From contig NZ_JAVHLD010000005.1 in assembly GCF_031082295.1 (NCBI RefSeq), forward strand, positions 117,075-181,074: DNA of 64,000 nucleotides. The letters run 5' to 3'. The notes below the pieces were generated by a model, which was not told where the DNA came from, did not search any database, and saw only the letters and a program-made list of their open reading frames with translations. Within the stretch, counting starts at the first letter, position 1. Every line of letters starts with the position of its first letter. The position numbers were made by a program, and so were the translations under genes. This document shows positions 42,739 through 57,320 of this stretch, piece after piece. The stretch comes from Humidesulfovibrio sp. GTDB taxonomy: Bacteria > Desulfobacterota > Desulfovibrionia > Desulfovibrionales > Desulfovibrionaceae.

Positions 42739-43935
42739 ATGAGCGGAAAGTCCGGACACCCTGACGCGGGCGCCATGCGTCGTGAGAACCTGGGCCGCGA
42801 GATCCTTGGCCGCGCGAAATGCGTGGTGGTCAAGGTGGGCAGCGCGGTGCTGACCTCTGATAAGGGCCTGGACACGAGCGTCGTGGGACGCCTGGTCGAC
42901 CAGATCGCCGCGCTGCGCGACCGTGGCCTGGAGGTGGTGCTCGTGAGCTCCGGGGCCGTGGCCGCCGGACGCATGCGCATCCGCCAGAGCCTGTCGGACG
43001 CCTCCAAGATCGATTTCGCCGAGCTGCCCTCGCGCCAGGCCGCCTCAAGCATCGGCCAGAGCCGGTTGATGCACGCCTACGACGAGGCCTTCAGCCGCTA
43101 CGGAAAGACCGTGGCCCAGATCCTGCTCACCCGCGAGGACCTGAAGAGCCGCGCGCGCTTCCGCAACGCCCGCAACACCCTCCGCAGGCTGCTGGACTGG
43201 GGCGTCATCCCCATCGTCAACGAGAACGACACCGTGGCCGTGGCCGAGCTCAAGTTCGGCGACAACGACACCCTGGCGAGCCTCATGGTGGACCTGGTGG
43301 GCGCGGACCTGTTCGTGAATCTGACCAGCGCAGACGGCGTGTTCGACAAGAACCCGGACAAGCATCCTGACGCGGCCTGCGTGCCCATGATCGAGGACAT
43401 CGAGAGCCTGGACATCGAGGTCATGTGCGACGGCAAGACAAGCGTCGGCTCCGGGGGCATGTACTCCAAGCTCCGGGCCGCGCGGCGCGCCGCCCAGCTC
43501 GGCGTGCCCACGCTCATTGTCTCGGGCAAGAGCCAGCTCGCGCTGGAGCGGATTTTCGCCGGGGAGGCCCTGGGCACCCTGGTGCTGCCCTGTGGGCGGC
43601 TGGTGTCGCACCGCAAGTTCTGGGTGGCCTACCACGATGACCCCGTGGGCACCGTGAGCGTCGATGCCGGGGCCGCCAAGGCCCTGCGCGAGAACGGCAA
43701 AAGCCTCCTGCCCGCGGGCATCCGCAAGGTGGAGGGCGGCTTCGAGCGCGGCGCGCTGGTGCGCATCGTCGACCTGGAAGGCCGCCACGTGGGCGTGGGC
43801 CTGTCCAACTATTCCGGCGCGGAGCTGGCCCGCATCCAGGGGCTCAAGAGCGCGGAGCTGGCCGAAGTGCTGGGCTCGGCCCCGTACCCCGAGGCCGTGC
43901 ACCGCGACAACCTTCTCCTCGACGCCGCGTTGTAG
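42739..43935 (+). CDS. proB: glutamate 5-kinase with PUA domain
   Basis: VVVKVGSAVLTSDKGLD, NENDTVAVAELKFGDNDTLAS, C-terminal PUA. Confidence 0.95.
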   Translation: MSGKSGHPDAGAMRRENLGREILGRAKCVVVKVGSAVLTSDKGLDTSVVGRLVDQIAALRDRGLEVVLVSSGAVAAGRMRIRQSLSDASKIDFAELPSRQAASSIGQSRLMHAYDEAFSRYGKTVAQILLTREDLKSRARFRNARNTLRRLLDWGVIPIVNENDTVAVAELKFGDNDTLASLMVDLVGADLFVNLTSADGVFDKNPDKHPDAACVPMIEDIESLDIEVMCDGKTSVGSGGMYSKLRAARRAAQLGVPTLIVSGKSQLALERIFAGEALGTLVLPCGRLVSHRKFWVAYHDDPVGTVSVDAGAAKALRENGKSLLPAGIRKVEGGFERGALVRIVDLEGRHVGVGLSNYSGAELARIQGLKSAELAEVLGSAPYPEAVHRDNLLLDAAL

Positions 43936-43938
43936 CCG

Positions 43939-44084
43939 GGGCCTGCCGCGAGGCGTGTCCTGCGCCCCCTGGCTTTGTCGCGCGCCTGTCCGGGGCCGTG
44001 GCTGTACCGCCAGAGTACTATCCCCGGCCCCGGACAACCCCGCTCCTCGCCAGGAAACGCAATCCATCGCCTGGCGGCAGGCCC
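43939..44084. repeat. multi-arm inverted-repeat element, copy 1
   Basis: Outer arms GGGCCTGCCGCGAGGCG/CGCCTGGCGGCAGGCCC; inner arms GTCCGGGGCCG/CGGCCCCGGAC; core GGCTGTACCGCCAGAGTACTATCCC shared with copy 2. Confidence 0.8.
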
Positions 44085-44130
44085 CAACGCCTGGCGTTGT
44101 TTCGGTACTCCCTTCGCATCCCCAAGAAAG

Positions 44131-44173
44131 CCGAAAGGGCTGTCTCTGGTTCCTCCTGAGACAGCCCTTTCGG
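44131..44173 (-). terminator. long perfect inverted repeat (terminator-like) downstream of SGNH gene
   Basis: CCGAAAGGGCTGTCTC-11 nt-GAGACAGCCCTTTCGG, 16-bp perfect stem; minus-strand tail GGCTTTCTTGG. Confidence 0.55.
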
Positions 44174-44186
44174 TGTACTGTGGGGT

Positions 44187-44207
44187 CCGGGGGCCTCAGG
44201 CCCCCGG
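44187..44207. repeat. short GC-rich REP-like hairpin
   Basis: CCGGGGGCCTCAGGCCCCCGG. Confidence 0.6.
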
Positions 44208-44243
44208 CGGGGTGCCAGGGGCGGAGCCCCAGCCTCGCTGGCC

Positions 44244-54634: not shown

Positions 54635-55638
54635 GCGTGGGATACCGTCGCGACATGCGCTGGCTGTGCGGCCTCTTGGCGGTGCTTGTGGTTCTGCCGC
54701 CGCTTCTTGGCAACAACTACTACCTGACCGTGCTGACCATGTGCTGCCTGAACGCCATGATCGCCGTGGGCCTGAACCTGCTGGTGGGCCACGCCGGTCA
54801 GATTTCGCTCGGCCACGCCGGGTTCTACGGCTTGGCGGCCTACACCACCTCCACGCTCGCCACCCGGTTCGGCGTGCCCGTGGGGCTGTCCATGCTCTCG
54901 GGCGTGGGGCTGACCTCCGGCGTTGCGGCGCTGATCGGCCTGCCCGCGCTCAAGCTCAAGGGCCACTACCTGGCCATGGCCACTCTGGGCTTCGGCGTCA
55001 TCCTCTCCATCCTGTTCAACGAGACCGTTGAGCTGACCGGCGGGCCGTCCGGCTTCACGGACATCCCGCGCCTGTCGCTGTTCGGCGTGGAGTTCACAAG
55101 CGACCTGTCGGTGTACTACCTCATCGTCGCCGTCCTGGGCGGGGTGATCTGGCTGGCCTTCAACATCCTGCACTCGCGCGTGGGCCGCGCGCTGCGCGCC
55201 CTGCACACCTCCGAGAAGGCGGCCCAGGCCATGGGCATCGACATCGCCCGGTACAAGCTGTTCATCTTCGTGGTGTCGGCGGCCTTCGCGGGCCTGGCCG
55301 GGGTGCTCTACGCCCACTACCTGACCTTCATCGCCCCGGCGTCCTTCGGCTTTTTGTTCTCGGTGCAGCTCATCGTCATGGTGGTGCTGGGCGGCATGAC
55401 GAGCATCCCCGGCACCATCACCGGCGCGTTCTTCCTCACCCTGCTGCCGGAATTCTTGCGGGCGTTCGAGAACATCGAGATTCTGCTCTTCGGCGGCATA
55501 TTGGTGCTGTGCATGATGTTCCTGCCCGACGGCCTGGCAGGCGGCTCCCGCCGTCTGAGCCGCCTGCTGTGGCGGAAGATGGTCGTGCGCGCCTCAAAGG
55601 ATGACGACGCCGAGGCGGGGGAGGGCGGCAATGGCTGA
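54631..55638 (+). CDS. livM: branched-chain amino acid ABC transporter permease LivM
   Basis: AVGLNLLVGHAGQISLGHAGFYGLAAY. Confidence 0.94.
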   Translation: MSVGYRRDMRWLCGLLAVLVVLPPLLGNNYYLTVLTMCCLNAMIAVGLNLLVGHAGQISLGHAGFYGLAAYTTSTLATRFGVPVGLSMLSGVGLTSGVAALIGLPALKLKGHYLAMATLGFGVILSILFNETVELTGGPSGFTDIPRLSLFGVEFTSDLSVYYLIVAVLGGVIWLAFNILHSRVGRALRALHTSEKAAQAMGIDIARYKLFIFVVSAAFAGLAGVLYAHYLTFIAPASFGFLFSVQLIVMVVLGGMTSIPGTITGAFFLTLLPEFLRAFENIEILLFGGILVLCMMFLPDGLAGGSRRLSRLLWRKMVVRASKDDDAEAGEGGNG

Positions 55639-56404
55639 ACCGCTGCTGCTCTGCCAGGATGTCGGGGTGCGCTTCGGCGGCCTGCAGGCGCTCTCGGGCG
55701 TTGAATTCAAGGCCGCCCCGGGCGAGATCACGGCCATCATCGGCCCCAACGGCGCGGGAAAGACCACGCTCCTGAACGCCATCTCCGGCATGGTGCAGGC
55801 CCAGCGAGGCACCTTCCGCCTCGGGGCCGACGACATCACCCGCGCCCAGGCGCATGAGCGCAGCCGCCTGGGGCTGGTGCGCACCTTCCAGAACCTGGAA
55901 ATTTTCTCCAACATGACGGTGCTTGAGAACGTCATGACCGGCTGCCACAGCCGCTTCCGCGTGCCGGCCTGGTCCAGCCTGCTGCGCACGCGCCATTCTA
56001 GGGCCCAGGAAAAGGCCATCCTGAACGCCGCCCTTGAGGTGCTCGACTTCGTGGGGCTGTTTGAGCTGGCCAAGTACCGCGCGAGCGATCTGCCCTTTGG
56101 CAAGCAGCGCCTGCTGGAGCTGGCCCGGGCGCTGGCCTCCGGCCCGCGCCTGCTGCTGCTCGACGAGCCCGCCGCCGGGCTCAACATGTCCGAGACCCAG
56201 GTGCTGGCCGACCTGATCCTGCGCGTGCGCGAGCATTTCCGCCTGGGCATCGTGCTGGTGGAGCACGACATGGACCTGGTCATGCGCATCAGCGACCAGG
56301 TCATGGTGCTCTGCTTCGGCCAGGTCATCAGCTGCGGTACCCCGGCCCAGGTCCAGCGGGACCCGCACGTCATCAGCGCCTATCTGGGCGACGACGAGGA
56401 TTAG
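55631..56404 (+). CDS. livG: branched-chain amino acid ABC transporter ATP-binding protein LivG
   Basis: GPNGAGKTTLLNAISG, LPFGKQRLLELARALA, LLLDEPAAGLN. Confidence 0.93.
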   Translation: MAEPLLLCQDVGVRFGGLQALSGVEFKAAPGEITAIIGPNGAGKTTLLNAISGMVQAQRGTFRLGADDITRAQAHERSRLGLVRTFQNLEIFSNMTVLENVMTGCHSRFRVPAWSSLLRTRHSRAQEKAILNAALEVLDFVGLFELAKYRASDLPFGKQRLLELARALASGPRLLLLDEPAAGLNMSETQVLADLILRVREHFRLGIVLVEHDMDLVMRISDQVMVLCFGQVISCGTPAQVQRDPHVISAYLGDDED

Positions 56405-56551
56405 GACCTGTTTCGAAAAGCGTCTTTTGCCCCCTGGACGTCGTCACGAGTCGATTCGGCGCCAGGGCTGTACCGCAGGAGTACTATCCCTGGCCCCAAA
56501 GCGCCTCTTTCCTCGCCAGGGAGACAAGATCCATCTTTTGGAAACAGGCCC
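56404..56551. repeat. multi-arm inverted-repeat element, copy 2
   Basis: Outer arms GGACCTGTTTCGAAAAG/CTTTTGGAAACAGGCCC; inner GCCAGGG/CCCTGGC; core GGCTGTACCGCAGGAGTACTATCCC. Confidence 0.8.
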
Positions 56552-56567: not shown

Positions 56568-57320
56568 ATGAATGCGCCACTGCTCGAAATAGCCAACCTG
56601 GACGTCTTCTACGGGAAGATCCACGCCCTGCGCGACGTGAGCCTGAACGTGCGGCCCGGCGAGATCGTCTCGCTCATCGGCGGCAACGGCGCGGGCAAGA
56701 CCACGCTCTTGTGCACCATCTCCGGGCTCATCCGGCCCAGCGCCGGGGCGATCGCCTTCGCCGGAGAGAACATCGTCCGCCGCGCGCCGGAGCGCATCGT
56801 GCAGGACGGCTGCTCCCACGTGCCCGAAGGGCGCCTGGTGTTCAGCCCGCTGTCCGTGGCCGACAACCTGCGCCTGGGGGCCTATGGCCGCCGTGGAGCC
56901 GGTGGACGGGCCGAAGTCCGCGAGCAGGCGGCGGAGGACCTGGAGCGCATGTACGAGATGTTCCCGGTGCTGCGCGAGCGCAAGAGGCAGGCGGCGGGCA
57001 CCCTGTCCGGCGGGGAGCAGCAGATGCTCGCCATCGGCCGCGCGCTCATGGCCCGGCCCCGGCTGCTGCTGCTGGACGAACCCGGCATGGGTCTGGCCCC
57101 GCTGGTGACGCGTGAAATCTTCCGCCTCATCGTGACCCTGCGCGACAGCCTGGGCCTCACCGTGCTCCTGGTGGAGCAGAACGCCCGGCGCGCGCTCAAG
57201 ATCGCCGACAGGGGCTACGTGCTGGAGACGGGCCGCGTGACCCTGGAAGGACCAAGCCACGAACTGCTCGCCAACCCCGACGTGCAGCACGCCTACCTCG
57301 GCCACGACATCAACGGCTAG
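56568..57320 (+). CDS. livF: branched-chain amino acid ABC transporter ATP-binding protein LivF
   Basis: GGNGAGKTTLLCTISG, LSGGEQQMLAIGRALM; start set at MNAPLLEIANLDVFYGK. Confidence 0.93.
   Translation: MNAPLLEIANLDVFYGKIHALRDVSLNVRPGEIVSLIGGNGAGKTTLLCTISGLIRPSAGAIAFAGENIVRRAPERIVQDGCSHVPEGRLVFSPLSVADNLRLGAYGRRGAGGRAEVREQAAEDLERMYEMFPVLRERKRQAAGTLSGGEQQMLAIGRALMARPRLLLLDEPGMGLAPLVTREIFRLIVTLRDSLGLTVLLVEQNARRALKIADRGYVLETGRVTLEGPSHELLANPDVQHAYLGHDING

Follow-up and report, generated by a model that had tools for sequence, protein, structure and literature searches.

Several bacterial MITEs have folding interiors, among them ERIC, NEMIS, YPAL and RUP (PMC3733652). The repeat described here resembles these elements in size (about 70–300 bp), in its terminal inverted repeats, in being non-coding, in often adjoining genes, and in folding into hairpins. 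It differs from them in that no sequence relation was found, the fold lies clearly on one strand, the core is conserved while the paired outer stem changes freely across genera, and the orientation is fixed at TAG stop codons. Several MITEs of the ERIC/NEMIS/YPAL/RUP group are associated with a TA duplication. Palindromic MITEs are common; the repeat described here combines a one-strand fold maintained across many genera, an insertion that would rebuild stop codons, and a rule of orientation.

Elements of the IS5 family offer a second comparison. IS5-type relics and one full-size element recovered in this analysis share with the repeat ends of the form GGGnCTGTyTC, TA duplication, and CTAG targets. 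Unlike an IS5-family element, the repeat is non-coding, with no DDE transposase gene inside its 146 bp, and its internal core is unrelated to the insertion sequence.

REP and REPIN sequences, which are associated with RAYT, are also multi-copy extragenic palindromes, although the present element is longer and TA-flanked. Integron attC sites are likewise imperfect palindromes located 3' of a stop codon, with the folded strand antisense to the gene, but the copies described here are dispersed rather than arrayed. No integron integrase scored above the TIGR02249 cut-off in any of nine carrier genomes, and a search of five copy-bearing genomes of the genus (G000, G002, G003, G005, and G012) found no RAYT/Y1 transposase. 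Both candidates were rejected on these grounds. That the repeat is an integron attC site, or a REP/REPIN-type element mobilised by a transposase of the tyrosine or HUH type, is extremely improbable, notwithstanding the attC-like strand and position and the REPIN-like intergenic palindrome.

Copies in the host genome

The window, meaning the whole 64,000-nucleotide stretch of Humidesulfovibrio sp. DNA that was analysed, contains two copies of the repeat (Table 1). The initial annotation had proposed this pair, and a covariance model returns both copies with exactly the same boundaries. The sequences also agree with its account of six paired arm changes between the copies (CCG/CGG versus TTT/AAA, and GGC/GCC versus AAA/TTT), of an internal mismatch retained in both, and of a GTAC...GTAC pairing. 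A refinement concerns the strand. In both copies, minus is the strand predicted to fold better, with energies of -113 kcal/mol on minus versus -94.6 on plus for copy 1, and -76.6 versus -63.3 kcal/mol for copy 2. The RNA-fold z-scores (minus strand, -11.7 for copy 1 and -6.4 for copy 2; plus strand, -7.6 and -4.3, respectively) lie far beyond those of shuffled sequence on both strands, and the two folds are therefore not due to chance.

Table 1. Positions of the two repeat copies, their internal parts, and neighbouring features in the window
Feature	Position	Strand	Remarks
Element copy 1	43939..44084	minus (folding strand)	146 bp; covariance model, E 2.5e-31 in host genome
Element copy 2	56404..56551	minus	148 bp; sits between livG and livF
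Apical core of copy 1	44000..44024	minus	GGGATAGTACTC-loop-GGTACAGCC as read on minus
Apical core of copy 2	56465..56490	minus	
Copy 2 outer conserved internal loop, 5' side GGA	56530..56532	minus	Proposed tandem G-A/A-G
Copy 2 outer conserved internal loop, 3' side GAC	56422..56424	minus	
proB, glutamate 5-kinase	42739..43935	plus	NCBIfam TIGR01027, 1e-121
livG-type ABC ATPase	55601..56404	plus	Best NCBIfam match PRK11300 LivG, 5.7e-77, under its curated cut-off
livF-type ABC ATPase, downstream of copy 2	56568..57320	plus	Best NCBIfam match PRK11614 LivF, 5.2e-78, under its curated cut-off
Short inverted repeat AAAGCCGAAAGGGCTGTCTC...GAGACAGCCCTTTCGG, terminator-like	44128..44176	.	Between copy 1 and convergent gene

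Copy 1 begins 3 bp after the stop codon of proB and is followed by the terminator-like hairpin and then by a convergent gene. This hairpin lies outside the element family, and a similar one is found in relatives. At copy 2, the G of the livG TAG stop is shared with the edge of the element. Past copy 1, the window also carries a GC-rich, repeat-like stretch at 44180-44232 (GGGGTCCGGGGGCC...GGGGCGGAGCCCC), which is present at the proB locus of relatives as well and looks like a separate REP-like repeat.

The host genome carries at least three copies of the element, and its matches to the covariance model have E values of about 1e-27 to 1e-37. The third clear copy (G000:C71:97253-97398) is located 3' of cmk, between the convergent genes cmk and cobT. 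It adjoins a cobalamin riboswitch upstream of cobT (L002:2908-3112, minus strand; Rfam RF00174, 58.7 bits).

Distribution across Desulfovibrionaceae

Copies were detected by BLAST in 11 of 40 relatives and by covariance model in 11 of 15 genomes of the genus, the output of the latter also containing reverse-strand matches because the element is palindromic. Copy number varies widely among congeners: G003 has about 70 unique copies, and none were found by the model in G001, G004, G008, and G009. A second covariance model, applied to 288 genomes of Desulfovibrionaceae, detected the element in 62 genomes and 12 of 44 genera, with copy counts that are minima, as ten candidates were scored per genome. 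Named carriers include Desulfovibrionales bacterium GWA2_65_9, HGW-Deltaproteobacteria-8, and Desulfovibrio sp. OttesenSCG-928-C06. One match of this family-wide scan lies on an Alistipes contig (L207).

The initial annotation, working from two copies, had made its reading depend on the existence of others in the genome and had recognised no named family. Dozens of further copies were found, and comparison with Rfam, plasmids, phages, viral contigs, and the literature gave no described family. At the Rfam gathering threshold there was no match on the element, a permissive Rfam search returned chance-level matches only, and plasmids, phages, and viral contigs held no match to it. The element family comprises previously unnamed mobile DNA repeats of about 146 bases in Desulfovibrionaceae, a family of sulfate reducers.

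Some copies depart from the general form. A subset of genus copies, 156-170 bp in length (L083, L061, and L099-L118), forms a subfamily with an extra 10-23 nt on the 3' arm, and in some of these the additional nucleotides fold as a small side hairpin. Neighbouring tandem copies occur at L179:1486-1860 and L180:2271-2528 (three in G087 and two in G296). In another carrier, G022, a second long, near-perfect palindrome (L025:1346-1438) lies beside an element copy; its weak miRNA-type Rfam matches reflect hairpin likeness only.

Folding strand and covariation

Across genera, the folding strand exceeds its complement in stability in 138 of 144 copies. On this strand, G-T cells outnumber A-C cells by 437 to 96 in a count of cells from related sequences, which are not independent, and among single changes at fixed sites the ratio of G-U to A-C is only 26 to 14. 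Conservation extends to bases that are unpaired in the model. In the genus, an internal loop is conserved as GGA facing GAC, with G, A, G, and A retained in 74, 70, 77, and 71 of 80 sequences, and positions G21, A22, G168, and A169 are all intact in 62 of the 80 (column counts). A second GGA/GAC loop is located further inside the element. Both loops may form tandem G-A/A-G pairs; the complementary strand would be unable to do so, which fits the strand preference.

Covariation was assessed with 81 distinct genus-level sequences and 54 proposed pairs. These positions hold standard pairs in 93.6% of cases, and 29 of the pairs have changed on both sides. There were 102 double-changed cells compared with a shuffled mean of 26 (none of 500 shuffles reached the observed value), and slid controls gave 29 to 42. 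Because the alignment was fitted to the model, it is biased towards the structure, and relatedness among the sequences makes the shuffle test too favourable. Both biases are guarded against by the slid control and by a test at fixed orthologous sites. At such sites in congeners, 17 compensated pairs were found where 4.3 were expected by permutation. The proB site (copy 1 versus its ortholog in G005) had 9 compensated pairs versus 1.7 expected, and the cmk site 5 versus 1.1. Seven ortholog sites were tested, and five of them lacked significant compensation. Fixed sites other than proB and cmk, including livG (copy 2), showed little compensation, near-neutral change, or some decay. Two slightly different alignments of the livG element between G002 and G005 both lacked significant compensation, and uncompensated changes have built up in other old copies, for example at livG in one relative.

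Shuffles, slid controls, fixed sites, and stabilities together give covariation beyond phylogeny and a strand preference, as would be looked for in a structured RNA. The initial annotation had taken compensating arm differences as a sign of selection on a folded structure. Compensation across copies is borne out overall, and selection on the fold is upheld for the element family and for some fixed copies (proB and cmk), where the excess of compensation was found, but not for every fixed copy. Pairing is therefore maintained by covarying mutations in the family and in some, not all, of its fixed copies. The earlier reading lacked two things. One was the unevenness of compensation among fixed sites. 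The other was a further possible source of symmetry: with IS5-type inverted repeats and TA duplications at the ends of many copies, shared recognition by a transposase could account for some of the symmetry of the outer arms.

Ends, stop codons and orientation

Genus copies have the ends CTA-GGGYCTGTTTC...GAAACAGGCCC-TAG. Most genus copies and most copies of a recent burst have TA on both sides, and where the outer bases differ, TA alone is shared. Like MITEs, most copies thus combine terminal inverted repeats with a target-site duplication, and the element is short, dispersed, multi-copy, and without coding capacity. Movement has been recent in at least one genome, as about 31 copies of 145 bp, nearly identical to one another, are scattered over different sites of G078. 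In the same genome, no gene-bearing element with the exact 16-nt ends was found, every end pair being about 120-147 bp apart. In G022, outer stems are wholly different among the copies of one genome and yet paired, and several of these copies are without TA flanks. The conserved unit is therefore the core and not the ends, and no simple, fixed terminal repeat accounts for the family in its entirety.

IS5-type relics with the element's ends were found at two loci (L120 and L124). The host relic (L120) is degraded, with a weak DDE_Tnp_1_2 match, and terminates in TTTGGAAACAGGCCC-TAG right after its transposase-like frame. In another genus (G090, L219), a full-size IS5-type element with a DDE_Tnp_1 match has CTA/TAG flanks and TA-flanked ends of similar style. 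It is these shared ends that suggest a link between the repeat and an IS5-family transposase. A 37-bp end-to-end derivative, consisting of two ends only and flanked by CTA and TAA, was also observed in G002 (L125:1817-1853).

The placement of copies relative to genes relies mostly on our own gene calls, made with a gene finder seeded with recognised genes. This was chosen over a composition-based finder because long antisense ORFs dominate in the GC-rich DNA studied here and lead such a finder to wrong strands. Edge genes were checked by Pfam, and 18 of 19 had Pfam domains, including pheS, ftsK, aroC, and moeA types; the genes ahead of the host's own copies are proB, cmk, and a livG-type gene. 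Among genus copies that abut a stop codon, the folding strand is antisense to the gene in 59 and sense in 5. In other genera and among diverged copies at stops, the corresponding numbers are 52 and 0, giving 111:5 outside the recent burst. Within the burst, 10 copies at stops are antisense and 2 are sense (P 0.04), a ratio that does not separate selection from insertion bias, while 20 of 32 copies are at neither. Recent G078 copies also lie 23:9 with the folding strand against the inferred replication fork, with ori/ter guessed from a patchy skew; being weaker than the bias in gene orientation, this effect of replication direction is treated as secondary.

Target choice accounts for only part of this pattern. 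In genus loci, CTAG sites outside elements are distributed as 46 at stops, 44 intergenic, and 17 coding. Stop codons are the location of 86% of genus elements versus about 51% of non-coding CTAGs, and target choice alone is thus insufficient. Nor does CTAG targeting, which explains position, explain orientation, as both ends of the element start with G and CTAG is symmetric. The orientation and the extra stop enrichment of older copies point to post-insertion selection or to insertion bias.

The explanation we favour, with a probability of roughly 0.6, is a MITE mobilised by IS5, with a conserved, strand-specific folded core, that survives where mRNA is spared the strong fold. The element, about 146 bp long, would be mobile but non-autonomous, of MITE type, and an IS5-family (DDE) transposase acting in trans would recognise its outer arms as terminal inverted repeats. 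Insertion would occur with TA duplication, preferably at CTAG. Where the CTAG forms a TAG stop, as is the case for about half of the non-coding CTAGs, the stop would be rebuilt because the element starts with G, leaving the gene intact. The interior is a conserved core with a good fold on one strand only, by way of the GGA/GAC internal loops and G-U pairs, and covarying mutations maintain this single-strand fold. The acting form may be RNA rather than single-stranded DNA. Copies have survived almost exclusively with the strongly folding strand antisense to the gene ahead of them, which leaves the weaker complement in the mRNA, and those in the opposite orientation would be lost or selected against. 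Keeping a strong fold out of mRNA may be the reason for the orientation bias, although the mobile-element part of this explanation is firmer than the part that concerns orientation.

A bolder and less likely possibility is a mobile nucleic acid with a structured form, either RNA or single-stranded DNA, spread across the taxonomic family, in which the core is the selected unit, swaps transposon ends between genera, lands antisense on stops, and is then retained next to certain housekeeping genes, where it functions as a 3'-end element. Such a mobile and strand-specific hairpin with a regulatory role would, if real, define a new class.

The main rival is use by the host. Here, the element would be a structured RNA or 3'-end element whose antisense-strand fold serves the preceding gene, with mobility only spreading it. 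The 52:0 orientation of old copies at gene ends, many of them of housekeeping genes, the compensated evolution at the proB and cmk sites, and the constancy of the core across genera despite changing outer stems all favour such a use. Its presence, however, is patchy, with congeners ranging from 0 to about 70 copies, proB and livG are without the element in the sister species G012 and G013, and some old copies decay, which leaves this explanation rather doubtful. The same doubt applies to its candidate roles, such as stopping or trapping antisense transcripts or processing within operons. Terminator action was rejected: A/T tracts flank the inner stem in other genera, but U-tracts beside it are absent in the host genus, and simple terminator action is therefore not conserved.

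Arm symmetry could also arise by mutation rather than selection if one arm is overwritten with a copy of the other during hairpin-templated repair or template switching. Changes do fall in short blocks (CCG/CGG, GGC/GCC) and are shifted to G+C, but copying of this kind would not be expected to produce a one-strand preference for G-T over A-C pairs or to conserve the unpaired GGA/GAC bases. Strand asymmetry and conserved loop bases consequently make it unlikely. It is much less probable still that the fold is irrelevant and that a single transposase's need for two matching ends is the sole cause of covariation in the outer arms. Such an explanation would suit the match of the genus-level ends to IS5-type relics, but it is contradicted for the inner stem (helix 3), which covaries far from the ends, with 7 of 8 pairs changed on both sides, and it sits poorly with the mutually unrelated, paired outer stems in G022.

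With its combination of one-strand fold, stop-codon insertion, and orientation rule, the repeat offers a natural experiment in how a mobile element turns harmless or useful at gene ends. The orthologous copies at proB, livG, and cmk, together with the recent burst, provide material for experiment and comparison. Many of the recent G078 copies (L222, L232, L236, and L239) are directly flanked by another dispersed repeat, AGAGCAnnTTnnnnTTGAAAT, the CTAG end of which seems to be a preferred insertion target.
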